Below, one piece after another: positions 2,651-54,429 of a stretch of 64,000 nucleotides of DNA. Position 1 is the stretch's first letter; each line of letters begins with the position of its first letter. The notes under the pieces are model-generated. The model was given only the letters and a program-made list of their open reading frames with translations. It did no database searches and had not been told where the DNA came from. The position numbers and the translations under genes were made by a program. Origin of the DNA: Rhizobium sp. N324 (lineage in GTDB: Bacteria > Pseudomonadota > Alphaproteobacteria > Rhizobiales > Rhizobiaceae); NCBI RefSeq assembly GCF_001664485.1, contig NZ_CP013635.1, positions 62,001-126,000 on the forward strand. Direction: 5' to 3'.

Positions 2651-2759
2651 TATTTTCTCCTCCGAATATTGCTCAGCAAGAAGGCGATCGAATGCGCTCG
2701 CGCATTCGACATGCTCGTCCTCCGTTGTTGGCGGGTTATTGTCGGTGCTCGGATCGCGA

Positions 2760-3170
2760 CTAAGCAATAGTGTCGAGATCGATCAGTTCAATCTTGTAAC
2801 CATCAGGATCCTCGACGAACGCAATGACTGCGGTGCCGTGCTTCATGGGACCGGCCGGACGTGGAATCCGGGCGCCGTTTGCTTCCAGCTCCTTGCAGAT
2901 CTGATAGATATCCCGCACGCCGAGGGCAATGTGGCCGTAACCCTCGCCAAGTTCGTAGGGCCTATCCTGATCCCAATTATATGTGAGCTCCAAAACGGCA
3001 TTGGACTCCTCCGGACCGTAGCCGATGAAAACGAGGGTGAATCTTCCCTCGGGGAAGTCCATTTTTCTCAAAACCTCCATTCCCAGCAAGCGCGTGTAAA
3101 AATCGATGGACCTATCCAAGTCCTTGACGCGCAGCATCGTGTGAAGAAGGCGAAATTTCGGCTCACTCAT
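2760..3170 (-). CDS. Glyoxalase I-like VOC-family protein
   Basis: A 136-residue vicinal-oxygen-chelate protein. The two beta-alpha-beta-beta-beta halves are visible, and the four expected metal ligands are present: His in LLHTMLRV, Glu in AVLELTYN, His in YGHIALGV and Glu in YKIELID. That is the full set of lactoylglutathione lyase (GloA), so a methylglyoxal-glutathione or related aldehyde adduct is a reasonable substrate. The start overlaps the stop of the DUF59 gene by eight bases (ATGAGTGA) with GAGGG ahead of it, so the two are translationally coupled; an ATG nine bases upstream is the alternative. In this operon it may detoxify a reactive carbonyl made by the pathway. Confidence 0.85.
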
Positions 3171-3948
3171 CAGTATCATCCCTCTGGCGTTCAGCCTCGT
3201 AGCCCGGCGCCGGATTGCTCCGGCGTGCTTGAATATAAAGACGGCACATTTCCGCGTTGCTTTCAGCGGCTCCCTTGACGCGTCGCAAGGTGCGTAAATG
3301 CGCGGGGTAGTCGGCAGCCTCGATGGGAGCGCCGTCGACAGTAATGAAGGCTGGTGCTTTGGGATCGCTCCCGCCCTTTTCGTGACGTCGTAACGTCAGA
3401 TAGCGGATCGCCGCCCCTCGAATTTCGTCCCCGCCATGCTGGGCGAAGGCCTGCAATTCCTCCATTGTCGTGGCCAGCGCCGCTGCGGCGCCGCGTTCAG
3501 CGGCCATGGCACGCAACACACTTTCCTGCCGACCAAGGAAAGCGCGTTCCTGGAAGTTGCGGCGAAGCTCGGCGAGATCGGTTTTCGCTTCACCGGAAAA
3601 AACCGAGGAAAACGCGGCACCGTCGGCAACGCCGCGGTTGATCTTGCCCGCCGCGAAATGATCGACGAGGCGCACCCGCGCCGTTTCGATGCCTGGCACC
3701 TGCTCGACCGCGAGCCGCATGTCAGCTGCCATCAAGAATGCAAAATTTGCTGAGCACCAGAACGTCGGCAACCGAAAAACGATGTCAGCTCTGCCCGCTT
3801 CGACGCGCACGGATTCGATAAATCCCATCGCGGCAACGGATTCGTCGAGTTCCGGGTCCATGACGGTGTCGAGTGCCGCCGCAACAGCGTCAAGCTCAGC
3901 CCTTGGGCCGCAAAGATCGCGTGACGTGGAATGATCAACGGCCTGCAT
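3163..3948 (-). CDS. DUF59/MIP18-type iron-sulfur assembly protein with long C-terminal extension
   Basis: A 261-residue protein. Residues about 16-100 match the DUF59 (MIP18/PaaD/SufT) fold: [19 protein letters not shown] followed by [18 protein letters not shown] strands (here [17 protein letters not shown]) with the conserved Cys. DUF59 proteins help insert or transfer iron-sulfur or other metal centres into client enzymes. The remaining 150 residues are mostly helical and are not part of that domain. I recall DUF59 genes next to an Amidohydro_2 gene in propane/phenol-type diiron monooxygenase clusters, which is exactly the adjacency here, but no monooxygenase subunit is in the window. Its client in this operon is therefore unknown. 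Confidence 0.7.
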
Positions 3949-3984: not shown

Positions 3985-4989
3985 TCAACGAAGGGGGCTT
4001 GGCAGCCTGCAATCAGCCGGGACCTCGAGACCGTAAAGATTTGCGGCATTGAGACCCAGAATCTTGCGTTTGACGTCGAGAGTGAGCGGGGTGCCGGCCT
4101 CCTTCGCCAGGTCCTCCGGAAATTCGTAGGCCATGAAATGCTCAATGATCCATTTCGGGCTCATGATCCCGTAGTCCGATCCGAACAAAATCCGGTCGGG
4201 TCCCAGAAAGTAGAGAAGATCCGATAGCATCTGGCCGAAATATTTCGGACGCGCGTAGACGAACGAGGTAATGAGCGCGAGCCCGCCCATGACGTTCGGT
4301 TCCTGAGCGGCGATCCAGCAGAAATCGTCGATGCGCGGCATGCCGCAATGATCGACGACGAAAGTCAGATCAGGGAAGGCGGTGGCAATATGATCGACAT
4401 CCCGGACGTCGAATGCATCGAGATTAAGCGGATGTGTCGTTGGCCCCTTGTGAACATGGATGATTTTCACACCAAGCTCGCGACACTTTTCCAGGTAGGG
4501 AACCACGAAGTCGTCTCGCAGCGTATAGCCCTTGGAGACGCCATTCCACTCGCCGGTGTATAGCTTGACACCTTTGAACCCGTATTTGCTGTGATCGGCC
4601 TCCAAGCGCTCCAGCCCGCGAGGGCCATTGCGCGGATCGCAACGGCCATTCAGGACCACTTTGTCAGGATAGGCGCGTTTGAATGCAGCGCATTGCTCTG
4701 TCGTGTTAAATCCTTCGATGTAGAAGTCGTAGAGATCGACCGGCAGCATGATTGCGGCATCAACATAACCGTCGACAAACAGATCCTTGGCTGCTCCGTC
4801 CACGCCGTAATGGCAGAAACGGTCAAAGTCCCACCGCTCGTCTGGAGGCGTTGAGCCGACATGGGCGCCCCAGAAGCTTTCGATAAAAGCCAGCCCATAG
4901 CGGTTGCGCCGATTTTGCTCCCGAGCGTCCCAAAGATGAATGTGCCCATCGACGATGAAAATTTTCTCGCCGTTCGGTGTAACAAACAT
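3985..4989 (-). CDS. Amidohydrolase family 2 (TIM-barrel metal hydrolase/decarboxylase)
   Basis: A 334-residue metal-dependent TIM-barrel enzyme of the Amidohydro_2 family (hydrolases and decarboxylases such as ACMS decarboxylase). The first metal motif is DGHIHLWD near residue 15, a later ligand His is in IHVHKG, another in VVDHCGMP, and the conserved Asp is in LFGSDYG. The ATG has AGGAGGACCG directly upstream. This is the first gene of the leftward operon and its promoter is the module at 5116-5161. Relatives sit beside diiron monooxygenases and DUF59 genes in alkane/ketone oxidation clusters; here the partners differ, so I name only the family. Confidence 0.85.
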   Translation of the reverse strand: MFVTPNGEKIFIVDGHIHLWDAREQNRRNRYGLAFIESFWGAHVGSTPPDERWDFDRFCHYGVDGAAKDLFVDGYVDAAIMLPVDLYDFYIEGFNTTEQCAAFKRAYPDKVVLNGRCDPRNGPRGLERLEADHSKYGFKGVKLYTGEWNGVSKGYTLRDDFVVPYLEKCRELGVKIIHVHKGPTTHPLNLDAFDVRDVDHIATAFPDLTFVVDHCGMPRIDDFCWIAAQEPNVMGGLALITSFVYARPKYFGQMLSDLLYFLGPDRILFGSDYGIMSPKWIIEHFMAYEFPEDLAKEAGTPLTLDVKRKILGLNAANLYGLEVPADCRLPSPLR

Positions 4990-5115: not shown

Positions 5116-5161
5116 AGTCAACATCATGATCCCACTTTGTGTCAAGTGGATCATGTGATCC
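5116..5161 (-). promoter_or_regulatory. Operator-promoter module of the leftward amidohydrolase operon (RpiR-type regulon, copy 1)
   Basis: Read on the minus strand, a 14-bp palindrome GGATCACATGATCC (5161-5148) is followed after two bases by the -35 box TTGACA (5145-5140). A half site GGATCATGATG follows, then TTGACT 18 bases after the -35. The same order with identical spacing occurs at 5344-5389 and 15249-15294. The palindrome next to the -35 and the half site in the spacer would let one regulator block RNA polymerase. The likely regulator is the RpiR-family gene nearby; that link is inferred. Confidence 0.75.
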
Positions 5162-5343
5162 AGATTGACGTTTGTTGATACAGAACGCCGCAATGCGTCG
5201 AGGTGAAATGGAGCACCGCCGCCTGGGAGCTCGCGTGCCTGCCTGAGCTCTGCTTGGTTTCGTCTCCGGACCCGCCTGCGTCGTTATCCCGTCTCCGAAT
5301 TCCCGATGACCCCGTTGCCCCGGCAGCAAAATAAATTGCCATA

Positions 5344-5389
5344 GGATCATATGATCCAATTGACAAATTATCGGATCATGGTGTTCACT
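5344..5389 (+). promoter_or_regulatory. Operator-promoter module of the aminotransferase-hydantoinase operon (RpiR-type regulon, copy 2)
   Basis: A palindrome GGATCATATGATCC (5344-5357), then two bases, TTGACA (5360-5365), the half site GGATCATG (5373-5380) and TTCACT 18 bases after the -35. Transcription should start near 5395, which decides the start of the first gene (GTG at 5426). It is divergent from copy 1, with about 180 bases between the two palindromes, so one bound regulator could loop or act on both. Confidence 0.75.
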
Positions 5390-5425
5390 GCTGCTCAGAA
5401 AGCGCCAAGCGGAGGAGATAGAGCG

Positions 5426-6781
5426 GTGAGACATAGCGAAAATTGTGCGGAAACCGCATCCGGCAACCGATCCGAAGCCGCGTTTTTACGAGAACGTAAA
5501 GTGGTTCCGGGCGGATCGATGCGCGCGGCCTCGTGGTTTCAGCCGCACCCGCCCTATGCTGCGAAGGGCGAGGGTTGCTGGGTCATCGATGTGGATGGAA
5601 GGCGGCTTCTCGATTGCGCCAATAATTTCTTTTCGCTGATTCACGGTCATGCGTTCGAGCCGGTCCTGGAAGCAGTTCGCGGCGCGATGTCCAAGGGGAC
5701 TGCATTTGGAATGCCGACTGAAAGCGAAATTCTGCTTGCCGAAGCCCTGGCGGAAAGAAGTCCGCGACTGGAACAGACCCGCTTCTGCAATTCAGGAACG
5801 GAGGCAGTGCTCGCTGCGATCAAAGGCGCGCGCGGACTAACGGGACGCGAGAAAATTGCCAAGTTCGAGGGCTGCTATCACGGGGCCTATGACTGGATTG
5901 AGGTCAGCCTTGATCCGACACCCGCCAATTGGAACGACGAGGCCGGCAATCCCGCATCGGTGCGATGCAACGCCGGAACGCCGGATTCTGTATTGCGCGA
6001 GACTGTCGTTCTTCCTTATGACGATCCGCAGCGTTGTGCAGATATCTTGCTTCGCGAAGGTCCGTCGCTGGCGGCGGTTATCGTCGATCCGCACGCCTCT
6101 CGCGCCGGCGCCGTGCCAATGTCGAGGGAAACCGCTGCCGTCGTCCAGCAAGCCTGCCGTAAGCACGGGATTGTCCTCATCGCCGACGAAGTTATCAGCT
6201 TCCGGCTTTCCTTCGAGGGAGCATCGCCCCTGTTCGGCCTGGAACCGGATCTGGTGACGACGGCTAAAATCATCGGCGGAGGCCTGCCGATCGGAGCGGT
6301 TTCCGGCCCTCGCGATCGCATGTCCGTGTTCGATCATTCCGCCGGCAAGCCGATCGTATCCATGGGGGGAACCTTTAGTGCGAACCCCCTGAGCATGGCC
6401 GCAGGTCTTGCCTCTCTCACCCATTATTCCCGCGCCGCCGTCGAGCGGCTCAACACCTTGGGCGACAGACTTCGCCAGCGCGTGCGGGCTGGATTTGCAA
6501 GTTCGGGAGTGGAAGCGTCGATAACGGGGATGGGGTCGCTGTTCCGGCTCCATGTCGGGCCGCACGAGGTCACTGGTTATCGCAGTGCATACGCCAATGC
6601 CGACACCGCCAAGCTCATTCGCCGCGTTCAGCTCGCAATGCTCGATGAGAACATCCTTCTCACGCCCAACTGCTCGGGCGCCCTGTCAACACCCATGACG
6701 GAAACAGAGGTTGATCTGATTGCCGACAAGCTGGTCGGCGTTGTGTCGAAGGACATCGGCAAAAACTCAGCCCCGGGCTAA
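5426..6781 (+). CDS. Class III aminotransferase (glutamate-1-semialdehyde aminomutase-like)
   Basis: A 451-residue PLP enzyme of fold type I, subgroup III. The cofactor Asp is in IADEVISF and the Schiff-base Lys in TTAKIIGGGLPIG, with the expected GGTFSANPLS motif afterwards. It most resembles HemL-like aminomutases that move an amino group within a short-chain substrate, but the context is catabolic rather than haem synthesis. The GTG start has GGAGGAG just upstream and lies downstream of the promoter; a longer frame from 5351 would begin inside the operator. It is the first of six co-directional genes and probably deaminates or rearranges an amino acid-like intermediate. Confidence 0.82.
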   Translation: MRHSENCAETASGNRSEAAFLRERKVVPGGSMRAASWFQPHPPYAAKGEGCWVIDVDGRRLLDCANNFFSLIHGHAFEPVLEAVRGAMSKGTAFGMPTESEILLAEALAERSPRLEQTRFCNSGTEAVLAAIKGARGLTGREKIAKFEGCYHGAYDWIEVSLDPTPANWNDEAGNPASVRCNAGTPDSVLRETVVLPYDDPQRCADILLREGPSLAAVIVDPHASRAGAVPMSRETAAVVQQACRKHGIVLIADEVISFRLSFEGASPLFGLEPDLVTTAKIIGGGLPIGAVSGPRDRMSVFDHSAGKPIVSMGGTFSANPLSMAAGLASLTHYSRAAVERLNTLGDRLRQRVRAGFASSGVEASITGMGSLFRLHVGPHEVTGYRSAYANADTAKLIRRVQLAMLDENILLTPNCSGALSTPMTETEVDLIADKLVGVVSKDIGKNSAPG

Positions 6782-6823
6782 GTGATTTGATGACGGTCGG
6801 CGTTTCAGCCTGAGACTGGCGGC

Positions 6824-8935
6824 ATGCCGTCGCAGAAACAACCAAAATGGGAACCGTGGATGTTAGTTGCACCTTACCGCGTTGGAGTTGATATCGGTGG
6901 CACGTTCACCGATCTTGTCATGGTCGATGCCAAGGGCGCCGTGCGAGCGTTCAAGGCTCCATCCGTGCCGGCCGACCCGACTGACGGCGTGTTGTCTGCC
7001 GTGCGGCTGGCGGCAGAGTCGCTGGGAACCGGCATAGAAACGTTCCTGGCCGATACCGAACTTTTCGTGCACGGCTCGACCATTGCCACAAATACCCTTC
7101 TCGAAAAGAAGGGCGCGAAAGTCGGACTGCTCGTAACCAATGGCTTCCGAGATTCGGTCGAAATCCGGCGCTCGATCCGGGAGAACGTATGGGATCATCG
7201 TCATCCCTTTCCGGAGGTCCTCGTGCCGAGGTACCTGCGTCTGCCGGTCGTCGGACGAATGGAGCATGACGGAACCGTGCGGACCCCGTTCGATCCCGCT
7301 TCGGTTGCCGCGGCCGCGCGGATCTTTGCCGAGGAGGGGGTCGAGGCAGTGGCGATCTGTTTTCTGCACTCCTATGCCAATCCGTCCCACGAACGGGCAG
7401 CCAAGGCCGAGCTTAAGAAGCTGCTTCCGGATGTCTGGGTCACCGCTTCTTCAGAAATCGCGCCGACCATCGGCGAGTATGAACGAACGTCGACCACCGT
7501 CGTCAACGCCTATGTCGCCTGCAAAGTGGTGCCCTATCTCGAGAGCCTGGCGACCAGGCTCGCAGCGTTCGGCCTGCCGCGCAAGCTTTTGATGATCCAG
7601 TCGAACGGAGGTGCAATCTCGATAGACGAGATTGGCCACACCCCGGCGAGCCTGGTGCTTTCCGGACCCGCCGCCGGTGTCGGATCGCTGAAATTTTTCG
7701 GGCAGGACACCGGCTCCGATCATCTGATCTCCATCGAGGTCGGGGGTACGAGTTGCGACGTCACCTTGATGCAACACGGCGCGGTCACGATGACGGACCA
7801 GATCGTGGTTGACGGTTATCATCTCAACATCCCTGCGGTTGACATCCACACAGTGGGCGCTGGCGGCGGTACGATCGCGTCTGTCGATGGCGCCGGCCTT
7901 CTCAAAGCCGGCCCCGAAGGCGCGGGCTCGACACCAGGGCCTGCATGTTATGGCCGTGGCGGCCGACGGCCAACCGTCACCGATGCCCAACTCGTTCTTG
8001 GTCGACTGAAACCTGGCCCCTATGCGGGCGGCGCGATTACGCTCAATTTGGAAAAAGCCGTCGAAGCGATTGATGATCATGTCGCCAAACCTCTCGGCCT
8101 CTCGGTCGCGGACGCGGCAGCCGGAATCATCCAGCTCGTTGAGCAGAACATCCTCCATGCTGTGGAACAGGCGTCCCTCGAGAAGGGCTTCAACCCGAGA
8201 ACGTTCACGCTTGTCGCCGCCGGAGGCGCCGGGCCGCTGCATGGCCCATCGACGGCTCGACTGCTCGGCAGCTCCAGCCTTTACGTCCCCCGTCTTGCCG
8301 GCGTCTTCTGTGCATTCGGAATGTGTAATTCCGACCTCCGTCATGACTATGTGCGAAGTTGGCTCCATGGCCTCGACAATGCTGCGGACTCTGGTTCCGC
8401 GGAGTTGGAGGCGGCTTTTACAGAAATGCAAACCGAGGCGAGCGAAGTTCTGCAACGAGAAGGATTTACAGGGAGCAGGGCGGCCCTGGAGCGAGCCTAT
8501 GACTTGCGGTATTTTGGACAGCAGTGGACCATTCCGGTCGAATGCGCCTCGACCGATGCCACTGTCATCAGAAAGGCGTTCGAGCAGATTTACCAGCGCC
8601 TCTTCGGCTACGTACAACCCGCCGGCGATATCGAGATCGTTAACCTTCGATTGGCGGCTATAGGCAAATTGGATCCCCTCCAGGTCGCCGCGGCGGCGAG
8701 TGACGTTTCCAATCCGCAGCCCCACTCCCGTCGATCGGTGTGGATCGACCGGCGCTCCGGATTCGTCGATACGCCGGTCTATGACGGCACGAAACTCGTC
8801 CCGCGCCAGACACTCGTTGGGCCGGCAGTCATCGAGGAAGCCACGACGACGCTGTTCATAGGTGACGGGGATCGCCTGACAATGACCGATGCCAGCAACT
8901 ATCACGTGAAGATAGCGCCGGGCGGGATAGCATGA
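6824..8935 (+). CDS. Hydantoinase/oxoprolinase subunit A (HyuA family)
   Basis: A protein of about 703 residues with the ASKHA-type nucleotide fold. The N-terminal motif VGVDIGGTFTDLVMVD marks HyuA-type ATP-dependent amide hydrolases and carboxylases (N-methylhydantoinase A, 5-oxoprolinase, acetophenone/acetone carboxylase beta). A second glycine-rich phosphate motif, VAAGGAGPLHG, lies near residue 467. These enzymes phosphorylate a lactam, imide or enol and work with a HyuB subunit, which is the next gene. The ATG at 6860 (12 residues later) is an alternative start. The substrate cannot be assigned: a lactam/hydantoin ring or a ketone are both compatible with the family. Confidence 0.85.
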   Translation: MPSQKQPKWEPWMLVAPYRVGVDIGGTFTDLVMVDAKGAVRAFKAPSVPADPTDGVLSAVRLAAESLGTGIETFLADTELFVHGSTIATNTLLEKKGAKVGLLVTNGFRDSVEIRRSIRENVWDHRHPFPEVLVPRYLRLPVVGRMEHDGTVRTPFDPASVAAAARIFAEEGVEAVAICFLHSYANPSHERAAKAELKKLLPDVWVTASSEIAPTIGEYERTSTTVVNAYVACKVVPYLESLATRLAAFGLPRKLLMIQSNGGAISIDEIGHTPASLVLSGPAAGVGSLKFFGQDTGSDHLISIEVGGTSCDVTLMQHGAVTMTDQIVVDGYHLNIPAVDIHTVGAGGGTIASVDGAGLLKAGPEGAGSTPGPACYGRGGRRPTVTDAQLVLGRLKPGPYAGGAITLNLEKAVEAIDDHVAKPLGLSVADAAAGIIQLVEQNILHAVEQASLEKGFNPRTFTLVAAGGAGPLHGPSTARLLGSSSLYVPRLAGVFCAFGMCNSDLRHDYVRSWLHGLDNAADSGSAELEAAFTEMQTEASEVLQREGFTGSRAALERAYDLRYFGQQWTIPVECASTDATVIRKAFEQIYQRLFGYVQPAGDIEIVNLRLAAIGKLDPLQVAAAASDVSNPQPHSRRSVWIDRRSGFVDTPVYDGTKLVPRQTLVGPAVIEEATTTLFIGDGDRLTMTDASNYHVKIAPGGIA

Positions 8936-9047
8936 CCGTTTTTCCCGAGCGGTGGCGAGATCCCGCCAGGGCAACCCCCAAGGCACGGCGCCATCCAACC
9001 GTCAGCCAGGCAGGTTTTCCCGATTTTAGATGTGATGGAGCCCAATC

Positions 9048-10802
9048 ATGAGCACTTCCTCGTCTTTCGACTTCGATCCGGTTCTGATCGCAATCCTGCA
9101 GCGGCAGCTGGACCATATCAGCCTGCAGATGGGAACGATCATGACGCGCACAGCGCGCAGTCCGATCTTCAGTCAGAGCCACGATTTCTCATGCTTTTTG
9201 AGCAATGCCAGCGGCGAGACCATCGCTCAGGCGGATGGGCTGCCGATTCATTCCGGCAGCGGCGGGTTTGCAGTCAGGGCGGTTCTGCGGGATTTTGCCG
9301 GGCGCATCGACCCCGAAGACGTCTTCCTGTTGAGCGATCCTTATGCCGCGGGCGGTAACCATCTGCCCGACTGGACGCTCATCCGGCCAGTTTTCGTCTC
9401 GGGCGAACTGATCGGATTTTGTAGCAACCGCGCGCATCAATCCGATATTGGCGGCGGCGCGGCTGGAACATACAATGCGAAGGCTACCGAGATTTTCCAC
9501 GAGGGAATTCGCCTACCCGTTCTTAAACTGATCGAGAAGGGTACGCTCCGTGACGATCTGTGGCGGTTGCTGCTTTTGAATTCGCGTTGCCCGGATCTGC
9601 TGGAGGGCGACCTCGGTGCGATGATCGGTTCCACGCGTATCGGCGCTCAACGTCTGGCCGATGTCGTCGAACAGCTTGGAGTGGAGAAGGGCAATGCCTA
9701 TCTCACGGCACTTCTGGATTACGGCGAACGACGCATGCGTCAGGCGATTTCGGAGCTTCCGAACGGAGTCTGGGAGGCTTCGGATGTAAGTGATACCGAC
9801 TGTTTCGATCTGGTTGATATTGAAACGCGTGTAAAGCTGACGGTCGAGGGAGACACGATTAGCTTCGATTTCACCGGGACCTCTCCTCAAATAAAAGGCT
9901 TTAAAAACAGCGGTATAGCGAATACGCACTCGGCTGTTTACTGTGCGCTGTCGGCTTTCCTCGACCCGGCAATTCCTCATAACGAGGGCGTCTACCGCTG
10001 CGTCAGGATCATTGCGCCGGAGGGTACTGTGGTCAACGCTTTGCCACCGGCGCCGATGACGATGAACACCGTCTATCCGGCGATCGACATCATGAACGCG
10101 TGCTGGCGGGCTCTGGCGCAGGCCGACCCGGAACGAGCTTGCGCGGGCTGGGGCAAGTCGGTGTTCGGGATATCGTCCGGCTCCAAGCCCGCCGGCGGCG
10201 TCTTTGTCCTCTATCATTGGCATGGTAGCTCAGGGGGCGGCGCAGTCAAAGGAAGGGACGGCTTTCCGACGACGAGCCATCAGATGACGCTTGGCGGCAT
10301 GTTCATTCCGAATGTCGAAACTTACGAGCAATCCTACCCGATCCGCGTGCATCGGTATGAGATGCGCCGGGACACCGGCGGCGCCGGACAGTATCGCGGC
10401 GGTACCGGTGTGGACTATGTCGTCGACGTCCTTGTTGGCGGCGAGCACCTGCTGCGCGGGGAGGGCGCCCGCAAACAGACCGGGGCCGGCGTCAATGGGG
10501 GGCATTGGGGTGCGAAAGGGTCGATCCAGGCCTATGATCTCGAGACCCGCGAAGCCCTGCCTTGTCCGCCATATGGGGTGGAGCAGGTCAAACCCTTCCA
10601 TCTTGTCATCGAAGCCTCCGCAGGCGGGGGCTGGGGGCATCCGCATGAGCGACAGGCAGAAGCGGTGCTTCGCGATGTGCGCGACGGGGTGGTTTCGCCT
10701 GAATCAGCGTTGAACATCTACGGTATCGAAGTCTCTGCAGACGGCAAGTCGATCCTTTCATCCAAAGCGAGGAGCGCCGGGCGCACTGCCGCCCAGCGTT
10801 GA
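9048..10802 (+). CDS. Hydantoinase/oxoprolinase subunit B (HyuB family)
   Basis: A 584-residue partner of the preceding subunit. Family hallmarks are the opening FDPVLIAILQRQLDHISLQM, the metal-site stretch FLLSDPYAAGGNHLPDWT, HQSDIGG and, towards the C-terminus, the glycine-rich MRRDTGGAGQYRGGTG segment. HyuB carries the hydrolytic or carboxylating site and acts on the phosphorylated intermediate made by HyuA. The gap to hyuA is 112 bases without a terminator, so they are probably co-transcribed. The pair is full length and shows no inactivating change. Confidence 0.87.
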   Translation: MSTSSSFDFDPVLIAILQRQLDHISLQMGTIMTRTARSPIFSQSHDFSCFLSNASGETIAQADGLPIHSGSGGFAVRAVLRDFAGRIDPEDVFLLSDPYAAGGNHLPDWTLIRPVFVSGELIGFCSNRAHQSDIGGGAAGTYNAKATEIFHEGIRLPVLKLIEKGTLRDDLWRLLLLNSRCPDLLEGDLGAMIGSTRIGAQRLADVVEQLGVEKGNAYLTALLDYGERRMRQAISELPNGVWEASDVSDTDCFDLVDIETRVKLTVEGDTISFDFTGTSPQIKGFKNSGIANTHSAVYCALSAFLDPAIPHNEGVYRCVRIIAPEGTVVNALPPAPMTMNTVYPAIDIMNACWRALAQADPERACAGWGKSVFGISSGSKPAGGVFVLYHWHGSSGGGAVKGRDGFPTTSHQMTLGGMFIPNVETYEQSYPIRVHRYEMRRDTGGAGQYRGGTGVDYVVDVLVGGEHLLRGEGARKQTGAGVNGGHWGAKGSIQAYDLETREALPCPPYGVEQVKPFHLVIEASAGGGWGHPHERQAEAVLRDVRDGVVSPESALNIYGIEVSADGKSILSSKARSAGRTAAQR

Positions 10803-10907
10803 TCAAGATAACATCTCGCTTCATCGCGGCGAACGTCCCCCAGAGCCTGTGGCCGGGTCCGTCGGTGAGCGTCAGCAATATGGTCACACAACGTTACGGA
10901 GGTTCAG

Positions 10908-11324
10908 TTGGCTAAACGCGCAAAGGAAATTCTTCACGATTATCACCAGGCTTGGTCCAGCGGCGATGTGGAAGCGGGATGCAGCTTTTACGCCGAGAGC
11001 CTGGTCGTCCATATGGGAGGATCGCACCCGGTACTTTCCGGCGACTTTCACGGCGCGAAAGGCTTCATAGAAGGCTGGGTGAACAAGGTCGCCGCGTACA
11101 CCGACCGGTGGGTGGTCGGTGGCGAAGCCGGAGCCGACGAGCTCATTGCCGAATCCGACGAAGCCATCCTCATCATGGTTCATGAGATCTGGACGCGTGG
11201 CGAGCAACAGGTGCGCACCGACCGGCTTGCCGCCTATCGGTTCGAAAACGAGAAGATCGTCGAATGCTGGTTCTGTGACATGCGCCAGGCTGAAGTGGAT
11301 CGGTTCTTTGAGGGTATCCGCTGA
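10908..11324 (+). CDS. SnoaL-like/NTF2-fold protein
   Basis: A 138-residue protein of the NTF2-like (SnoaL polyketide cyclase) superfamily, judged from the opening AKEILHDYHQAWSSGDVEAG, the conserved FHGAKGFIEGW segment and the ending KIVECWFCDMRQAEVDRFF. Such proteins have a cone-shaped pocket and serve as isomerases, cyclases or binding proteins; no catalytic residues can be named with confidence. The start is TTG with GGAGG eight bases upstream. It lies between hyuB and the GMC oxidoreductase and may act on an intermediate between those steps. Confidence 0.72.
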   Translation: MAKRAKEILHDYHQAWSSGDVEAGCSFYAESLVVHMGGSHPVLSGDFHGAKGFIEGWVNKVAAYTDRWVVGGEAGADELIAESDEAILIMVHEIWTRGEQQVRTDRLAAYRFENEKIVECWFCDMRQAEVDRFFEGIR

Positions 11325-11389
11325 CGGTGCTGGTCGATTGAGCGGTCAGAACATACGCGGCTGCGTGCCGGAATAGGAGAGGGGAATTC

Positions 11390-12976
11390 ATGCCCGACTA
11401 TATCGTCGTAGGTGGAGGATCTGCCGGATGCGCCATAGCGGGGCGTCTCAGCGAAGATCCAGCCGTGTCGGTAACATTGTTTGAAGCGGGCCCACGAGAC
11501 AGCAGTATGTGGATACGGTTCCCCGTAACCTTCTACAAGTCCTTCAAGAGTTCATTGCTGCAATGGTACAAGATTGAAACGCTGAAGCACCAGAATGGTC
11601 TTGAGACTCAGGTCGGCCAGGCGCGTGTTTTGGGAGGAGGCAGTTCCCTTAACGCGATGATTTACATTCGCGGCGCCCCCGAAGATTACGATCGGTGGGC
11701 AGCTCATGGTGCCGATGGCTGGAGCTACAAAGACGTTCTGCCATACTTCCGGAAGGCGGAAAACAACGAGGTATTTTCCAACGAAGCCCATGGACAAGAC
11801 GGCCCTCTGAGTGTTTCCAACCAGCAGCATACGCTCCCCTTGACCAAGGCCTGGGTCAAGGCATGCCAAGAGGCAGGTATTCCCTTCAACCCGGACTTCA
11901 ATTCCGGAGAGCAGAAAGGCGCCGGTTTCTACCAGCTCACCACCAGAGACGGTCGCCGGTGCAGTTCTGCGGCGGCCTATCTCCACGCGGCGCGAAATCG
12001 GCAGAACCTGAAGATCCTGACCGACAAGCCGGTCACCAGAATTCTCGTCGAAGCCGGACGCGCCGTTGGCGTCGAATATCTTGAGAACGGGCGCTTGACG
12101 ACGCTCCGTGCCGACCGCGAAGTCATTGTTTCGTCTGGTGCGATCGGGTCGCCACGATTGCTGATGCTATCGGGGATCGGGCCGGCGAAGGAATTGCGGA
12201 GCGCCGGCGTCGACGTGGTGCACGATCTTCCAGGCGTCGGGCAGAACCTGCAAGACCACACGGATTGCTTCCTGATCTACAATCTGAAATCCGACAGCAG
12301 CTATGACAAATACAAGAAACTGCGTTGGCAACTTGCCGCAGCCGCTCAGTATGGCCTCTTTGGAACAGGCCCCATCACGTCCAACATCTGCGAAGGCGGA
12401 GCATTTTGGTGGGGCGATCGACGCGACCCAGTCCCGGATCTGCAATATCATTTTTTTGCCGGCGCCGGTATCGAAGAAGGCGTCGAAACGACAGCCAGCG
12501 GCAATGGCTGCACGTTGAATGTCTATGTATGCCGGCCGGAATCGAGGGGCCGAATAGCGCTCCGCTCGGCCGACCCGACCGTCCCGCCCCTGGTCGATCC
12601 CAATTACCTCAGCCACCCTTACGACGTGGACCGTCTCATCGACGGCGTCCGGCTGGGACAGGAGATCATGTCGAAACCGTCAATGCAGAAATATGTTCGT
12701 GCTGGGCATTTGCCGGAAAAGCCGCTTACGGCTCGCGCAGACCTTGAGGCCTTTGTCAGAAAATATACGCAGGGCGCCTACCACTTGAGCGGCGCTTGCA
12801 AGATCGGAACCGACGAGATGGCGGTCGTCGACCCTCAGCTTCGTGTACGAGGTATCGATGGTCTGCGCGTTGCCGATACCTCGGTGATGCCGTTCGTCAC
12901 CTCCGGCAATCTCAACGCTCCCGCAATCATGATCGGGGAGCGAGCCGCCGATTTCCTCAAAGGCAATAGGATCTGA
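11390..12976 (+). CDS. GMC-family FAD-dependent oxidoreductase (choline/alcohol dehydrogenase-like)
   Basis: A 528-residue flavoprotein. The FAD dinucleotide motif VVGGGSAGCAIAGRL lies at residues 5-19, followed by the GMC signature around VLGGGSSLNAMIYIRG near residue 85 and a second signature, SSGAIGSPRLLMLSGIGPA, near 250. The C-terminal active-site region keeps His in AYHLSGACKIG and Asn in TSGNLNAPAIMIGE. It should oxidise an alcohol or hydroxyacid to the carbonyl. The ATG is preceded by AGGAGAGGGG. Fifth gene of the regulon operon. Confidence 0.9.
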   Translation: MPDYIVVGGGSAGCAIAGRLSEDPAVSVTLFEAGPRDSSMWIRFPVTFYKSFKSSLLQWYKIETLKHQNGLETQVGQARVLGGGSSLNAMIYIRGAPEDYDRWAAHGADGWSYKDVLPYFRKAENNEVFSNEAHGQDGPLSVSNQQHTLPLTKAWVKACQEAGIPFNPDFNSGEQKGAGFYQLTTRDGRRCSSAAAYLHAARNRQNLKILTDKPVTRILVEAGRAVGVEYLENGRLTTLRADREVIVSSGAIGSPRLLMLSGIGPAKELRSAGVDVVHDLPGVGQNLQDHTDCFLIYNLKSDSSYDKYKKLRWQLAAAAQYGLFGTGPITSNICEGGAFWWGDRRDPVPDLQYHFFAGAGIEEGVETTASGNGCTLNVYVCRPESRGRIALRSADPTVPPLVDPNYLSHPYDVDRLIDGVRLGQEIMSKPSMQKYVRAGHLPEKPLTARADLEAFVRKYTQGAYHLSGACKIGTDEMAVVDPQLRVRGIDGLRVADTSVMPFVTSGNLNAPAIMIGERAADFLKGNRI

Positions 12977-13056
12977 GAACCGGAGCAGATCGTTCGGTCT
13001 GCGGGCGGCGTCACCCCTTTGCGCACTTAACCGATCGAACATTGAAAGGGCAGCAT

Positions 13057-13941
13057 ATGAAACTTGTATCCTACCATGCCGGCGTCACGACCAGGGCAGG
13101 CGTCGTGCTCGATGCGAAAGTGTACGATGTAGAAATGTTGCTTAGCGGCTTTGCCGTCAGGCCCTCCCGAAGCTCTTCGCTCCGAGAGGTTCTAAGCGAG
13201 CACGGTGGCGGGCTGGCAGCATTGGCCGGGCGCCTGACGGCGGCGGCCAAAGACAATATGAAGGCAGAGATTGGACCACTGGAATCCGTGCGTCTAGCAC
13301 CACCGATCACAGACCCGGCAAAGGTGTTGTGCATCGGCCTCAACTATAATGACCACGTCGCAGAAACAGGTCGCGCATTACCGTCTCATCCCGACGTTTT
13401 TGCAAAGTTTGCCAGCACGCTGATCGGTCCGAACGAAGACATCCGGTGCTCTCACGTTACGCAAAATCTCGATTTCGAAGGCGAACTGGCAGTCGTGATC
13501 GGTCGTGAATGCCGCGCGGTCGCGCCGGATCAGGCGCTTGGCTACATCGCCGGGGTAACGGTACTCAACGACATTACCGCCAGGGACTTGCAGTATCGGG
13601 GAACGCAGTGGCTCGCCGGCAAGGCTGTCGATGGATCTACGCCCTGCGGACCGGCAATCGTCACCCTCGACGAGATTGGCGACGTTCAGGATTTGGACAT
13701 AAAGACAAGGGTCAATGGTGTCGAGGTCCAGTCCTCGAATACACGCTATATGATTTTTCCCATTCGCGAATTGATTTCTTACATCTCGTTTTTTCTGACC
13801 CTGTCGCCCGGCGACATCATCACGACCGGCACGCCGCAAGGCATTGGCGCCAAACGTCAGCCGCCTCTGTGGCTGAAGCCCGGCGATGTCGTGGAGGTTG
13901 AGCTTCAACGAGTTGGGGTACTGCGCAACCGCGTCCAATAA
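13057..13941 (+). CDS. Fumarylacetoacetate hydrolase-family protein
   Basis: A 294-residue FAH-fold enzyme. The metal-binding core is recognisable: LNYNDHVAETG, then DFEGELAVVIG (the E-x-E pair), and ITARDLQYRGTQWLAGKAVDGS. The C-terminal TGTPQGIG loop is also present. Members hydrolyse C-C bonds of acylpyruvates or decarboxylate/hydrate 2-oxo-3-enoates, so it suits a late step producing central metabolites. The ATG at 13057 has GAAAGGG upstream; the open frame can be read from a TTG five codons earlier. It is the last gene of the operon and is followed by a strong hairpin. Confidence 0.87.
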   Translation: MKLVSYHAGVTTRAGVVLDAKVYDVEMLLSGFAVRPSRSSSLREVLSEHGGGLAALAGRLTAAAKDNMKAEIGPLESVRLAPPITDPAKVLCIGLNYNDHVAETGRALPSHPDVFAKFASTLIGPNEDIRCSHVTQNLDFEGELAVVIGRECRAVAPDQALGYIAGVTVLNDITARDLQYRGTQWLAGKAVDGSTPCGPAIVTLDEIGDVQDLDIKTRVNGVEVQSSNTRYMIFPIRELISYISFFLTLSPGDIITTGTPQGIGAKRQPPLWLKPGDVVEVELQRVGVLRNRVQ

Positions 13942-13956
13942 TGTCAGGCGATCCGC

Positions 13957-13989
13957 GCGTCCGGCTACCGTCTGTCTCTCGCCGGACGC
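13957..13989. terminator. Hairpin between convergent FAH and RpiR genes
   Basis: GCGTCCGGC and GCCGGACGC pair perfectly over nine bases around a 15-base loop, ending on the base before the stop codon of the convergent regulator gene. There is no T-tract on either strand, so termination may need Rho or be bidirectional and partial. Confidence 0.5.
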
Positions 13990-14955
13990 CTATTCGGAAT
14001 GCCCGTCGGCGGCCGAATTTGTCCGCCGGGCCTTTGCCGTACGCTGCCGTTTGCCATCCGGGCTGGAGAGAAGGTACTCACCGGAATTTACGAGGAACCG
14101 CTCATTTTCACGGATTCGATGCTGCGCCGCGTCGCCCAGTTTGATGATCGTCAAAGCCGCCAGAGCATTGGCGATCGCAATCGCGCCCAGCGCGGATTCC
14201 GGGAAGGCGCGTCCAGAGGACTGTGCCACGAAATGCAGCGGACCGGCAAATTTGCTGATCGGCGCCGCGAAACTGTCGGTGATGGCGATCACCCTCGCTC
14301 CCATATGGGACGCCTTCTCAGTCAGCCGATGCACGAGCCGGTTAAACGGTGCGAAAGTGACCGCAACGAAGGCATCGCCAGGGTGAATGTCATCCAGGGC
14401 GCCTTCCGGGGCTCCCCCTGGAGTGTCCAGCAGAACAATGTTCGGCCGTGCCTTTTGCAGCGTGTAGGCGAGCGTGAAAGCGGGGGTAAAGGCAGTCCGC
14501 CGGCCCATGACATATATTTTTGGCGCCTTCGCCAAAATTTCGATCGCAGCTTCAAGTTGTTCTTCCGACAAGTGGAGCCTCGCCTGACCGACGATGGCTT
14601 GCTCGGTCGCGAAGAACGAATCCACAAAGGTCATAAGACTGGGAGTTTTTCCGCTTTCAGAGATCAGAGTCTGAGCGCTCAACTCATTGCGTTTGATGGA
14701 TTGGCGGTCTCGCAAATGCCGTTCCGTCGTGTCGATGAATTGCTGCCGGAATTCGCTGTAACCGGCAAATCCCAGCCTCTGGGCCAATCGCACCAGGCTG
14801 ACCGGCTGCACTTCCGCACGCCGCGCAACCTCCCTCATTGTATAAAAAGGGATTTCTTCAGCATTGTTGATCACGTAATGGGCGGCTTCAACCGTTTGTC
14901 CGGAGAGCTCTACGCAGATGTTTTTGATCCGTTCGATCAGGTCTAGTCTCGTCAT
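13990..14955 (-). CDS. MurR/RpiR-family transcriptional regulator
   Basis: A 321-residue regulator. The N-terminal 80 residues form the RpiR helix-turn-helix (YTMREVARRAEVQPVSLVRLAQRLGFAGYSEFR is the family pattern; key parts VARRAEVQPVSLVRLA). The C-terminal half is a SIS sugar-phosphate-binding domain (IYVMGRRTAFTPAFTLAY, then VAVTFAPFNRLVHRLTEKA). SIS domains usually sense a phosphosugar or related acid. The ATG at 14955 is preferred over a GTG 57 bases upstream. It lies between two operons carrying the GGATCAnnTGATCC module and is the obvious candidate to bind it, which is inference. I see no copy of the module in its own promoter. Confidence 0.87.
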   Translation of the reverse strand: MTRLDLIERIKNICVELSGQTVEAAHYVINNAEEIPFYTMREVARRAEVQPVSLVRLAQRLGFAGYSEFRQQFIDTTERHLRDRQSIKRNELSAQTLISESGKTPSLMTFVDSFFATEQAIVGQARLHLSEEQLEAAIEILAKAPKIYVMGRRTAFTPAFTLAYTLQKARPNIVLLDTPGGAPEGALDDIHPGDAFVAVTFAPFNRLVHRLTEKASHMGARVIAITDSFAAPISKFAGPLHFVAQSSGRAFPESALGAIAIANALAALTIIKLGDAAQHRIRENERFLVNSGEYLLSSPDGKRQRTAKARRTNSAADGHSE

Positions 14956-15344
14956 TGGTCGCTCTGGATTCGTTGATGCAGGCCCTTGGTGCCGGATGGT
15001 TCGCGGCAGCACCCGGTTTTCAGCCTGATTGCCATACTTTGAGTCATATCGGCAAGTTTGTTAGCCCGCCCGTTCCATGGTGGCGCCTTCCCGGAAATGG
15101 TTGTGGGCGAGATCCTTCATTCGACGCGCTATTCAATTCGATACTCCATATTTAGTTGGGCGACGCGAGCGATTTCTTTGCCGGGCAAAAAGTAACTGGG
15201 CACCGTCGTCGCATGTTTTTGGACTCTGCCAACATTAATTTGTAGCCTGGATCACATGATCCACTTGACAATAAGTTGGATCATAGTGTTCACTCTTGTC
15301 AACCAAAAGAAATCAGGGTGAACGAGCCGGCTCAGGCAAGGGCC
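14956..15344. other. Divergent regulatory region between the RpiR gene and the ABC operon
   Basis: Apart from the operator-promoter module, I see no gene in this stretch. The regulator's own promoter must lie here on the minus strand; its position is not clear. The rest is the 5' untranslated leader of the ABC operon, unusually long for these genes at about 150 bases. Confidence 0.6.
15249..15294 (+). promoter_or_regulatory. Operator-promoter module of the ABC importer operon (RpiR-type regulon, copy 3)
   Basis: A palindrome GGATCACATGATCC (15249-15262), two bases, TTGACA (15265-15270), the half site GGATCATAG (15278-15286) and TTCACT 18 bases after the -35. Order and spacing match the other two copies base for base, which links uptake by this ABC system to the two catabolic operons. 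Confidence 0.75.
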
Positions 15345-15449: not shown

Positions 15450-16562
15450 ATGACTGCCGTAAGCCTGAGAGACGTGTGGAAGCAATTTGGCACTTACACG
15501 GCAATCGAGGATCTCAACCTGGATATCAAGGACGGAGAATTCATGGTCTTCGTCGGGCCGTCCGGTTGCGGAAAGACAACAACCCTGAGAATGCTCGCCG
15601 GCCTTGAGACTCCGACCTACGGTCGGATCCTTCTGGGTGAGGAGGACGTCACGCTGACCCCACCGGGACGGCGAAACGTGTCCATGGTCTTTCAAAGCTA
15701 CGCGCTTTATCCGCATATGACGGTGCGGCAGAATTTGTCCTTCGGTCCGGAGATCCGGGGCGAGGCGAAAGCCGAGATCGCCGGCGGAATTGACCGCGTG
15801 GCGAGGCTCGTCGGTCTGCAATCGCTCTTGAACCGTTATCCAAGCGAGCTTTCCGGCGGCCAACGCCAGCGCGTCGCTCTGGCGCGCTCGATGATCCGTC
15901 ATCCGCGCATTTTTCTTCTCGACGAGCCGCTGTCGAATTTGGACGCCAGTCTGCGAACGCATATGCGTACGGAAATCGCAGAACTGCAGCGTCAACTGGG
16001 GGTTACGGCGGTCTACGTCACTCACGACCAAGTCGAAGCAATGACGATGGGTCACCGCATAGCCGTGTTTGACCAGGGCCGCATTCTTCAAGTTGCAACG
16101 CCTTCCGAACTTTATCGGGCGCCGGCAAACAAAGTCGTCGGAATGTTCATCGGCTCCCCGCGCATGAATATTTTGCCGGCCAGCTTGGAGCGGGCCGGCG
16201 ACATGGTCAAGGTTCGCTGCTTCAACCTATCCTTCGTTGTCGAAGGCCGCCATTTTGTCAAAGACCACCTCCCGGAGAATGTCGAACTCGGGATCCGGCC
16301 GGACGAAATTCAGTGGGTGAAGGACGCACCTTCAAGGTGCACCGAGACAATCACCGGCATCGTGACGTCTCTCGAAACTACCGGATCGGACACGTTCGTT
16401 CTGGTCGATGTCGAAGGCAGCGAAATTAATGCGAAATTCCCAAGCTTTGCGCCGGTAAGGCGCGGAGACGCCGTCGATTTGGTCTTCGATCCGCTCAACC
16501 TCCATTTCTTCGATGGGGAAACGGGAGCGAGCTTAAAGGGCAACGCGGCCAACCAAAACTAA
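15450..16562 (+). CDS. Sugar-type ABC importer ATPase (UgpC/MalK-like)
   Basis: The 370-residue ATP-hydrolysing subunit of a CUT1 importer. Walker A GPSGCGKT is at residues 36-43, the signature LSGGQRQR near 134, Walker B IFLLDEP just after, and the switch His in VYVTHDQVE. The C-terminal 130 residues form the OB-fold regulatory domain seen in MalK/UgpC. A strong AAGGAG precedes the ATG. It is unusual in being the first gene of its operon, ahead of the binding protein. Substrate: whatever feeds the RpiR-type regulon; not predictable from the ATPase. Confidence 0.92.
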   Translation: MTAVSLRDVWKQFGTYTAIEDLNLDIKDGEFMVFVGPSGCGKTTTLRMLAGLETPTYGRILLGEEDVTLTPPGRRNVSMVFQSYALYPHMTVRQNLSFGPEIRGEAKAEIAGGIDRVARLVGLQSLLNRYPSELSGGQRQRVALARSMIRHPRIFLLDEPLSNLDASLRTHMRTEIAELQRQLGVTAVYVTHDQVEAMTMGHRIAVFDQGRILQVATPSELYRAPANKVVGMFIGSPRMNILPASLERAGDMVKVRCFNLSFVVEGRHFVKDHLPENVELGIRPDEIQWVKDAPSRCTETITGIVTSLETTGSDTFVLVDVEGSEINAKFPSFAPVRRGDAVDLVFDPLNLHFFDGETGASLKGNAANQN

Positions 16563-16593: not shown

Positions 16594-18075
16594 ATGTCGA
16601 TCTACAGAACGAAGTGCCTGTCCCGCGATATTCAAGACCGTGCTGTCCAAAAAATGGCCTGTGATAGGCAAGGGCCGAAAGACCGCGCGTTGCTCTCTTC
16701 CACCGACCTTGGCAGGGGCTTGCGAAAGCTTGCGGTTGCTGCGCTTCTCGTCGCGGCAGGATTTGCAACTGTCCCGGCGGGTCATGCGGAGGCGGCAACG
16801 GTCAAGGTGGCGTTCAGCCTGAATTGGACATTCGCCGATCCGAAACTTGCCCAGAAGTGGTTCGGCAACGTCAAATCGCAATTCGAGGCTGCTCATCCGG
16901 GCGATACGATGGAACTGATACCGGTGCCCGGCACCTATGACGACTACATCACCAAGCTCAGCCTTCTCTACAATTCGCCAGACACCAAACCGGACATCGT
17001 GCAATATTTCGACATCAATGTCGGTCAGTTTGCCGGGAGCGATCTGCTCTCGCCCCTCGATGATAAAGTCGCCGGTGCATCCTGGTGGCAGGACACGCCG
17101 GATGCGGTCAAGGAATCTGGAAAATACGATGGCAAGGTCTATTCCGTGGCGCAGGGGATCAATACCTATGGAATCCTTTTCGACCGGACACTGACGGAGA
17201 AGGCCGGACTTGCGAAAGACTGGAAGCCGCAAAGCTGGAACGACATTCTTGATGCCGCCCGCGCAATCAAAAAGACGTCGCCGGAGGCCTCGCCGCTCTA
17301 TGTCATCACCGGGACGGCACAAGGCACGTTCGGTGTGGTGGCCGGCCCAGGCCTTCTGCTCTCCGCCTCGAGCAATCCGACCATCTTTGATACGGCGACC
17401 GGCAAATGGGTCGTTGACAGCAGCGGCATTCGGGAAGTCTTGAATTTCTACAAGACGGCGGCTGCAGACGGACTGCTGGCTCCGACATCGCAAATCATGG
17501 ACCCGAATGGCGCGACGCATCCCGCCGAGTCCCTCCATAAGCATGAGTTCGGCATTACCTTTGCCGGCAATTGGATCCCGGTCTTCTGGGGCAAGGATAT
17601 CTGCGCGCCCTGCTGGGACGACGAAGAAAAGACGATAGGCTTTGCCCAGGTCCCGACGGCGAAGGGCCAGGCCCCTGGATTCGGCGCGAGCTTCAACGGC
17701 GTCGTGCTGTCGATGTCCAAGGACCCGTCAAATGCCGATCTTGCCTGGTCGGCAATCGACATCATGCAACAAAAGCAAAACCTCACAGATATTGCCGCGT
17801 GGGTCCCGGTCGTTCCAGCCACCGCGTCCTTGAAGGCCGACTCCCGATATCTGTCGCTGAGCCGCCCGCCTTTCCAGGAGGCTTTTGCCAATCTGAGTTC
17901 GACCTCCAGAAGCATGCCCTCGCAACCAGAGTTTCCGATCTGGGGCAATGCATTCCAGCAGGCCACCCAAGCGATGGTGCTGAAGCCGGAGACAACGATC
18001 GATGAGGGCATCCAGATCCTGAAGTCGTACATGGCAACCCAGGTCGGCGAAGACAATCTGGAGACCTTGCCGTGA
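16594..18075 (+). CDS. Extracellular solute-binding protein, family 1
   Basis: A 493-residue periplasmic binding protein for the importer. The N-terminus is long: about 25 polar residues precede a hydrophobic signal segment (LAVAALLVAAGFATVPAGHA) with a likely cleavage after AEA near residue 67. The mature part resembles family 1 carbohydrate-binding proteins (motifs TKLSLLYNSPDTKPDIVQYF and GITFAGNWIPVFW). GGGAG lies upstream of the ATG; a start at 16654 or later would give a normal signal length. Cysteines in DICAPCWDDE may form a disulfide or bind a ligand group. Confidence 0.87.
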   Translation: MSIYRTKCLSRDIQDRAVQKMACDRQGPKDRALLSSTDLGRGLRKLAVAALLVAAGFATVPAGHAEAATVKVAFSLNWTFADPKLAQKWFGNVKSQFEAAHPGDTMELIPVPGTYDDYITKLSLLYNSPDTKPDIVQYFDINVGQFAGSDLLSPLDDKVAGASWWQDTPDAVKESGKYDGKVYSVAQGINTYGILFDRTLTEKAGLAKDWKPQSWNDILDAARAIKKTSPEASPLYVITGTAQGTFGVVAGPGLLLSASSNPTIFDTATGKWVVDSSGIREVLNFYKTAAADGLLAPTSQIMDPNGATHPAESLHKHEFGITFAGNWIPVFWGKDICAPCWDDEEKTIGFAQVPTAKGQAPGFGASFNGVVLSMSKDPSNADLAWSAIDIMQQKQNLTDIAAWVPVVPATASLKADSRYLSLSRPPFQEAFANLSSTSRSMPSQPEFPIWGNAFQQATQAMVLKPETTIDEGIQILKSYMATQVGEDNLETLP

Positions 18076-19920: not shown

Positions 19921-19933
19921 AGGCCGCCTTCTC

Positions 19934-20548
19934 ATGAAACTTGATCCCTTCTATCTCATCGTCGACAGCGCCAAATGGATCGAGCGTCTCGTGCCGCTTG
20001 GCGTCAAACTCGTCCAACTGCGCGTCAAGGACCGTTCAGACTCCGCGCTTCGCGAGGAGATACGCCGTTCGAAGGTCGCCTGTTTGGCAGCGGGCTGCCG
20101 ATTGGTCGTCAATGATCACTGGAAGCTGGCAATCGACGAGGGATGCGATTTCGTTCATCTCGGGCAGGAAGACCTGATGGCCGCCGATATGACAGCCATC
20201 CGCCGTGCCGGCCTGAAGCTCGGCCTTTCGACCCACAACATATCGGAGCTGGAAACTGCGCTGGCGGTTGAGCCGGACTACGTCGCGCTCGGACCGGTGT
20301 GGCCCACGGTCCTCAAAGAGATGAAATGGGGGCCGCAAGGCGTCGAGCGCATCGCGGAGTGGCGGCGGCGCGCCGGGCGAACACCGCTCGTCGCCATCGG
20401 CGGCATCACGGTCGAGCGCGCGCCGCTGGTGTTCGAAAAAGGTGCAGACAGCGCTGCCGTGGTCACCGATATTGTTCGCAGCCCCAATCCCGAGGCCCGC
20501 ACGCGTCAATGGCTGGCCGCGACCGCGCCTTTAAGGTCAGCGAGATGA
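19934..20548 (+). CDS. thiE: Thiamine phosphate synthase
   Basis: A 204-residue TIM barrel that joins HMP-pyrophosphate and thiazole phosphate to make thiamine phosphate. Family motifs are visible: LVQLRVKDR, VVNDHWKLAID, HLGQEDL, ALGPVWPT and VAIGGI. The sequence reads like rhizobial ThiE that I remember. It starts 13 bases after the permease stop with no terminator, so it is likely in the ABC operon. That is odd: none of the other thi genes (thiC, thiO, thiS, thiG) is nearby. A decayed copy of its 3' end lies at about 42.2 kb. Confidence 0.85.
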   Translation: MKLDPFYLIVDSAKWIERLVPLGVKLVQLRVKDRSDSALREEIRRSKVACLAAGCRLVVNDHWKLAIDEGCDFVHLGQEDLMAADMTAIRRAGLKLGLSTHNISELETALAVEPDYVALGPVWPTVLKEMKWGPQGVERIAEWRRRAGRTPLVAIGGITVERAPLVFEKGADSAAVVTDIVRSPNPEARTRQWLAATAPLRSAR

Positions 20549-54375: not shown

Positions 54376-54429
54376 CCGGACGTCGTGCACCAGGACGATG
54401 CGCGTCTCCGACCAGCGAGGTGAGCATTG

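Follow-up and report, generated by a model that had tools for sequence, protein, structure and literature searches.

Escherichia coli MurR, which joins an HTH_6 domain to a SIS domain, acts on paired neighbouring operator sites over the -35 and -10 promoter elements. A MurR tetramer is proposed to bridge these sites, which lie 17 bp apart, cover 47 bp in total and overlap both elements (PMC12713135). The same source describes the SIS loop of MurR and of pneumococcal NanR as holding phosphate, and RpiR regulators other than NanR as repressors; NanR itself is described as an activator that senses N-acetylmannosamine-6-phosphate and uses a near-palindromic site with a degenerate half-palindrome about 23 bp downstream. 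HexR and RccR, two further members of the family, which control carbon metabolism in Pseudomonas, are described as acting on palindromes, RccR with two kinds of site (PMC5489143). Sinorhizobium IolR is described as an RpiR-like repressor of a rhizobial catabolic pathway, that of inositol, and is modelled as being released by an intermediate of that pathway (PMC8877191). Here we describe a 46-bp module found three times around one rpiR gene in a stretch of 64,000 nucleotides from Rhizobium sp. N324 (contig NZ_CP013635.1, positions 62,001 to 126,000 of the forward strand; the whole stretch is called the window below). In our reading, the module is quite probably the operator-promoter of a local regulon, at which an RpiR tetramer seated on two sites, O1 and O2, would repress transcription until a catabolic intermediate appears.

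Read on their own strands, copy A (5161 to 5116) is GGATCACATGATCC-AC-TTGACA-N7-GGATCAT-N4-TTGACT, copy B (5344-5389) is GGATCATATGATCC-AA-TTGACA-N7-GGATCAT-N4-TTCACT and copy C (15249-15294) is GGATCACATGATCC-AC-TTGACA-N7-GGATCAT-N4-TTCACT, with 24 fixed bases at constant spacing common to the three. Re-reading the sequence thus returned the positions and strands that an earlier reading of the window, made from its letters (the sequence-only reading), had given for them. When the window was resampled 300 times at first order, the palindrome, observed three times, averaged 0.017 occurrences with a maximum of one, and no resample contained the full 24-base module. When the whole 6.97 Mb genome was searched with the 24-base pattern, allowing up to three mismatches, copies A to C were the only matches and the reversed control gave 0. 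The exact palindrome GGATCANNTGATCC (GGATCAN2TGATCC) stands at four places in this genome, three of which are the module copies; the fourth (C1:609561) was set aside, as it lies within a long open reading frame with no adjacent TTGACA. Rfam gave no matches in the window.

The geometry of the module was followed in 21 related stretches, the window included, by collecting every GGATCANNTGATCC with no requirement on the bases that follow. The palindrome occurs at 55 places in 17 of these stretches, and none was found in G282, the G654 cluster, G1086 or the second G781 contig. TTGACA at position 17 and GGATCA at position 30 accompany 54 of the 55 palindromes; in the reverse direction, an exact palindrome precedes every one of the 54 occurrences of TTGACA-N7-GGATCA. 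The sole exception is a palindrome at 42189 of G1095, which has neither element, and a palindrome of G654 was set aside because it falls within a long reading frame and has no TTGACA. With up to six mismatches allowed, the distribution is nearly all-or-none (54 exact matches, one at three mismatches, one at five and 11 at six). Seven of the 11 six-mismatch matches are exact modules on the other strand or overlapping, and one falls within a window gene (11824); the remaining ones are the G1095 palindrome, a variant in G939 and a match at 12398 of L114, perhaps a degenerate module, ahead of EtfB.

Outside the fixed bases the modules have drifted. Over 209 orthologous module pairs, identity is 34% in the N7 spacer, 39% in the 15 bases upstream, 36% in positions 47-80 and 69% in positions 36-46; the 100% identity at the 24 fixed bases is a consequence of how the modules were selected. 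Modules at least 90% identical to one already kept, or with less than 95 bases of context, were excluded from these comparisons. The 54 modules comprise 49 distinct 60-mers, those of G085 and L111 being near-identical. Fixed geometry with drift elsewhere, which the sequence-only reading had taken as evidence of function, is therefore borne out by the 54 of 55 and 54 of 54 counts together with flanks and spacer only 34-39% identical. The same numbers bear on the idea that recent duplication and spread by recombination gave rise to the copies, whose likeness would then come from homogenisation rather than from selection on a binding site. Several copies per cluster and the frequent location of the clusters on plasmids would suit such a history, but duplication would carry the intervening and flanking bases along, and these are precisely the divergent ones between orthologous modules, so that we find it hardly credible.

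The absence of any spacing change, claimed from the three window copies, holds among those copies; over the 54 exact modules it does not extend to the -10-like element. The distance from TTGACA to TTnAnT is 18 bp in 40 of them, 17 bp in five and neither in nine. TTnACT is a poor -10, with no A at position 2, and the module accordingly escapes a promoter scan based on the consensus; our identification of the -10 is tentative. Rigidity thus belongs to the operator and the -35, and the -10 region allows more freedom than the window alone could show. It could be argued from this that TTGACA is part of a protein-binding site, rather than or besides a -35, and that the true promoter lies elsewhere: it follows the palindrome in 54 of 55 cases, which is stricter than for a usual -35, beside a -10 that is weak and variable. 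However, TTGACA is the exact -35 consensus and TTnAnT lies 17 or 18 bp away in 45 of the 54 modules, which makes this proposal very unlikely.

The module travels with the regulator. Pattern GGATCANNTGATCCNNTTGAC is present in 6 of 148 genomes of the window's genus, and RpiR (E 1e-35 or better) in the same six, at 74-80% identity in the five others; in an order-wide sample of 397 genomes the pattern was found in two, both of the window's genus. In a Bradyrhizobium-like genus, RpiR (64-68% identity) occurs in 4 of 265 genomes and the exact pattern in three, all within those four; the module of the fourth, G1086, is a variant with three mismatches. Among the 72,556 plasmid records of PLSDB, RpiR (E 1e-40) is found in eight, and the 47-base module consensus (E 1) matches the same eight, although BLAST undercounts modules, returning one place in pRM41A and omitting an exact module present elsewhere on this plasmid. 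The genome_contigs scan gave a single relative, L074 (Mesorhizobium sp. Root102), with two exact modules. Records very close to the window's genome may be left out of both the plasmid and the genome_contigs searches. As a control in the family, the aminotransferase encoded behind copy B (E 1e-120) was matched in 5 of 394 genomes. Three of these (G000, G017 and G781, aminotransferase at least 82% identical) hold RpiR and exact modules, while in G654 (46%) RpiR went unmatched at E 1e-25 and the cluster lacks the module. These controls are consistent with a module that follows its regulator. A module widespread before unrelated genes would have spoken against a dedicated regulon; what was found is that the carriers in the genus, in the Bradyrhizobium-like genus and among plasmids all hold this RpiR.

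That RpiR binds the module had been proposed from its location, and the comparison lends this support: the module co-occurs with RpiR, is limited to the cluster, and, rpiR apart, no DNA-binding gene was found to be conserved among the clusters (no all-frame scan for DNA-binding domains was made). RpiR therefore very probably binds it. The position of the gene points the same way. In the window and in L074, rpiR and the ABC operon diverge; in G017, G070, G085, L111, L112 and L113 the regulator gene comes after the fumarylacetoacetate-hydrolase-family (FAH) gene that belongs to the aminotransferase operon and has the same orientation; it adjoins the aminotransferase module in G939 and G1095; and it follows the ABC permeases, past a gap, in G019 and G126, or stands on a separate contig in G781. 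Being often in or beside a module-bearing operon, it is placed as expected of a local, autoregulated system. Two rpiR paralogs were seen in one cluster region of L109 (S. chiapasense pB; 18013-18948 and 30607-31539), with an IS5-like transposase near one of the two copies, and G1095 likewise has two.

The protein itself has an N-terminal HTH_6 domain (33.5 bits against a Pfam cut-off of 28.3) and a C-terminal SIS domain (36.3 bits against 25), the latter with sequence matches to the solved chains 4ivn, 3sho, 7en5 and 7en6. Its start is GTG 15012 or, more likely from the alignment with relatives, an ATG near 14955. It stays below the NCBIfam cut-offs for the MurR equivalog (40.7 bits against 408) and the HexR subfamily (20.5 against 296). 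The stretch (Q/P)PV(S/T/N)(L/F)VRLAQ, which we take to be the recognition helix, is found in all 21 aligned RpiR sequences, including one about 45% identical, and the strict pattern xPxxLVRLA matches 66 of 86 database homologs and fails in the other 20. The phosphate-binding SIS loop SxSGxT, typical of characterised members but not defining for the whole RpiR/MurR family, is absent: AISYSGSKKE of MurR aligns to AVTFAPFNRL. In its place TFAPF(N/S)R appears in 21 of 21 aligned RpiR sequences, and F(A/S)P(F/Y) in 81 of the 86 homologs. The effector of this RpiR may therefore not be a sugar phosphate.

Variant modules in three Bradyrhizobium-like stretches bear on the second half of the design. 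At G939 21790, G1095 25618 and G1086 15292 (cluster-stretch coordinates), the first site is degenerate and the second, at the same place, is palindromic or near-palindromic and of the GAACCA or GGAGCA type: GAACCAAATGGTTC in G939 and G1095, GGAGCAAGTGGTCC in G1086. Their mismatches out of 24 number six, five and three, respectively, with at most 0.04 expected per stretch. These variants precede operons with FAD-linked-oxidase (Pfam, G1086 and G939), FAH-like and rpiR genes, and operator specificity may be shifting within one RpiR clade. Because the variant second site is itself a palindrome or near-palindrome, we read the common module as two putative operators flanking the -35, about 29 bp centre to centre. 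By analogy, this geometry is close to the MurR two-site plan, with sites 15 bp apart spanning about 43 bp in place of 17 and 47 bp; the regulon differs from that of MurR, and the SxSGxT loop is missing. The half-sites GGATCA/TGATCC differ from TTGT/ACAA of HexR and from TGTAGT/ACTACA of RccR (PMC5489143), the site sequence is not that of NanR and, in contrast to the inositol pathway under Sinorhizobium IolR, neither Pfam nor NCBIfam marked the genes behind the modules as inositol genes.

Mechanistically, one RpiR dimer would sit on O1, the perfect palindrome at positions 1-14 directly beside the -35, and another, probably belonging to the same tetramer, would occupy the weaker O2, which starts with GGATCA at position 30 and lies within the -35/-10 spacer. 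O1 and O2 would thereby bracket TTGACA, and RNA polymerase would be excluded. With substrate present, a catabolic intermediate would bind the SIS domain, and the transport and catabolic operons would be derepressed together. Repression is most likely the mode of action; the bridging tetramer and its effector we infer.

RpiR might instead bind the module and activate, O1, centred about 45 bp before the presumed start, recruiting polymerase to a promoter whose -10 would be too weak by itself; the poor TTnACT and the negative promoter scan would suit this. Proteins bound in the -35/-10 spacer usually block polymerase, however, and the second site sits there. Within the family, pneumococcal NanR offers a precedent for activation from a palindrome with a degenerate half-palindrome nearby, but the other RpiR regulators are described as repressors (PMC12713135). 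Overall, we regard activation as unlikely, though worth keeping in view.

Several observations weigh against repression by RpiR from two sites. In the common module only the left half of the second site, GGATCA, is perfect and the right half is degenerate; the spacing of this site varies by one base; and 29 bp between centres is a non-integral number of helical turns. The weak -10 would suit an activated promoter equally well, and Aeromonas IolR is described as acting both ways, so RpiR proteins are not all simple repressors (cited in PMC8877191). Some operons of the cluster go without an exact module: none precedes the etf genes in L112 or G1095, and in L114 these have the six-mismatch candidate. 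In the fifth family genome of the control, G282 (aminotransferase 55% identical), an adjacent RpiR about 45% identical comes with no exact palindrome or module, which shows an operator drifted or lost in a distant relative; two near-palindromes there, GGATCAAATGGTTC (71 bp before the aminotransferase frame) and GAACCATATGGTCC, carry 2-3 mismatches, fall within chance and are suggestive at most. Finally, orthologs of the aminotransferase track the module on plasmids in 8 of 8 cases, as exactly as RpiR does. Aminotransferase relatives (E 1e-70) occur in 144 PLSDB records, of which the eight at 78% or more are the RpiR and module set and the other 136, all below 60%, lie outside both; the ABC ATPase (E 1e-130) reaches at least 78% in five of the eight plasmids and 59% in two Mesorhizobium plasmids outside them. 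Co-occurrence marks the cluster, not RpiR alone, and because the aminotransferase co-occurs equally, linkage by itself does not single out the regulator.

This last point leaves some room for another protein on the module, either unlinked (of the GntR family, for instance) or the product of a flanking AraC or LysR gene, with RpiR as a passenger. Regulators of several families recognise palindromes as long as this one. On either side of the window's cluster stand an AraC gene (397-1626) and a LysR gene (21873-22790), and further regulators stand near some other clusters, such as a TetR gene adjoining rpiR in L110. Yet BLAST, at the thresholds applied, showed no homolog of the window's AraC or LysR gene in the other clusters that were read, and rpiR is the sole annotated regulator within two annotated plasmid clusters. 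An unlinked regulator would, moreover, need to be restricted to the few cluster-bearing genomes or to have no other site in the genome. We thus hold a different binder to be quite unlikely and RpiR to be the probable one.

The gene runs behind the three copies, which strand and spacing suggest to be operons, are listed in Table 1. As had been claimed, the modules precede catabolic or transport operons around one RpiR gene: the amidohydrolase run behind A, the aminotransferase run behind B and the ABC transporter run behind C. From the -10-like hexamer to the start codon there are 127 bp (A), 37 bp (B) and 156 bp (C). The distance for B is counted to GTG 5426, the likely start of the aminotransferase, for which the NCBIfam models listed all score below their cut-offs. 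Copy C lies ahead of a sugar-type ABC transporter operon and is also upstream of the divergent rpiR.

Table 1. Module copies and neighbouring genes in the window (coordinates count from the first base of the window).
Feature	Coordinates	Strand	Details
D-2-hydroxyacid dehydrogenase	1700..2767	-	Pfam PF02826/PF00389; putative copy A operon
Glyoxalase-family protein	2760..3179	-	Pfam PF00903; putative copy A operon
FeS_assembly_P-domain protein	3163..3948	-	Pfam PF01883; putative copy A operon
Amidohydrolase	3985..4989	-	Pfam PF04909; first gene behind copy A
Module copy A	5116..5161	-	O1 palindrome 5148-5161; TTGACA 5140-5145; second half-site GGATCA 5127-5132; -10-like TTGACT 5116-5121
Module copy B	5344..5389	+	O1 5344-5357; TTGACA 5360-5365; GGATCA 5373-5378; TTCACT 5384-5389
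Class-III aminotransferase (glutamate-1-semialdehyde aminomutase-like)	5426..6781	+	Pfam PF00202 (frame 5351-6781); first gene behind copy B
Hydantoinase/oxoprolinase A subunit	6824..8935	+	Putative copy B operon
Hydantoinase/oxoprolinase B subunit	9048..10802	+	Putative copy B operon
SnoaL-like protein	10908..11324	+	Putative copy B operon
GMC oxidoreductase	11390..12976	+	Putative copy B operon
FAH protein	13042..13941	+	End of putative copy B operon, before convergent rpiR
rpiR, HTH_6 + SIS regulator	13990..15012	-	Pfam; proposed module binder
Module copy C	15249..15294	+	O1 15249-15262; TTGACA 15265-15270; GGATCA 15278-15283; TTCACT 15289-15294
ABC transporter ATPase (MalK-like)	15450..16562	+	First gene behind copy C
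Extracellular solute-binding protein	16594..18075	+	Putative copy C operon
ABC permease 1	18072..19010	+	Putative copy C operon
ABC permease 2	19051..19920	+	Putative copy C operon

Across the relatives and the window, with BLAST matches under 40% identity omitted from the comparison of cluster genes, the nearest homologous gene downstream of the 54 modules is the aminotransferase in 16 cases (one of them refiled by hand from the next gene), the ABC ATPase in 12, the glyoxalase in 11 (one of these 1.9 kb from its module, with another frame between), a second GMC oxidoreductase in nine, EtfB in four and the amidohydrolase in one; one module faces a contig end.

Some further features of these clusters and of the window were noted. 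In the window, a thiamine-phosphate-synthase-like gene (19748-20548, above the NCBIfam cut-off) closes the ABC operon; none of the other clusters read showed a match to this gene. A Gfo/Idh/MocA oxidoreductase on the minus strand (20674-21791) is present as two overlapping frames (21075-21791 and 20674-21102), as after a frameshift. Farther along lie two pairs of E1 alpha and E1 beta genes of the 2-oxoacid dehydrogenase type (32751-34781 and 59182-61178; Pfam) and two LacI-family regulators (47058-48044 and 54427-55416; Pfam) that look much alike by eye. In L110 (S. meliloti Rm41 pRM41A), an electron-transfer-flavoprotein beta gene is apparently split (20300-22356), its pieces about 1.1 kb apart.

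The enzymes and the sugar-type importer suggest that the substrate is a nitrogen-containing polyol or a lactam. A more specific idea, which we consider speculative and rather doubtful, is that the RpiR subfamily with TFAPF(N/S)R senses a non-phosphorylated intermediate, perhaps a carboxylate or amino compound, and governs plasmid-borne catabolism of a nitrogen-containing polyol from root exudates, calystegine being one candidate. Use of calystegine by S. meliloti Rm41 is attributed to its plasmid pRme41a (PMC3556828), and in this strain the cluster lies on pRM41A, a plasmid of 246,023 bases, the size of pRme41a. Calystegine is a lead only, since the Rm41 plasmid holds many other genes.

No description of this regulon was found in the open papers searched, which covered the motif, RpiR and IolR, RpiR regulons in Rhizobiales, MurR operators, hydantoinase and calystegine. 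It is a new local regulon of a known regulator type, not a new mechanism. The regulator and its putative operator form a pair that can be tested at once, and the module, with three places in a 7 Mb genome, is specific enough to serve as a marker of a single catabolic cluster of root-associated bacteria, in Rhizobiaceae as well as in Bradyrhizobium-like genomes. Its two-site design around the -35, with about 50 distinct natural variants at the free positions, makes it a good system for the study of promoter control by RpiR proteins. The module could help to locate the genes for a rhizosphere nutrient and, if the missing loop means a non-phosphorylated effector, the sensing range of RpiR proteins would be wider.

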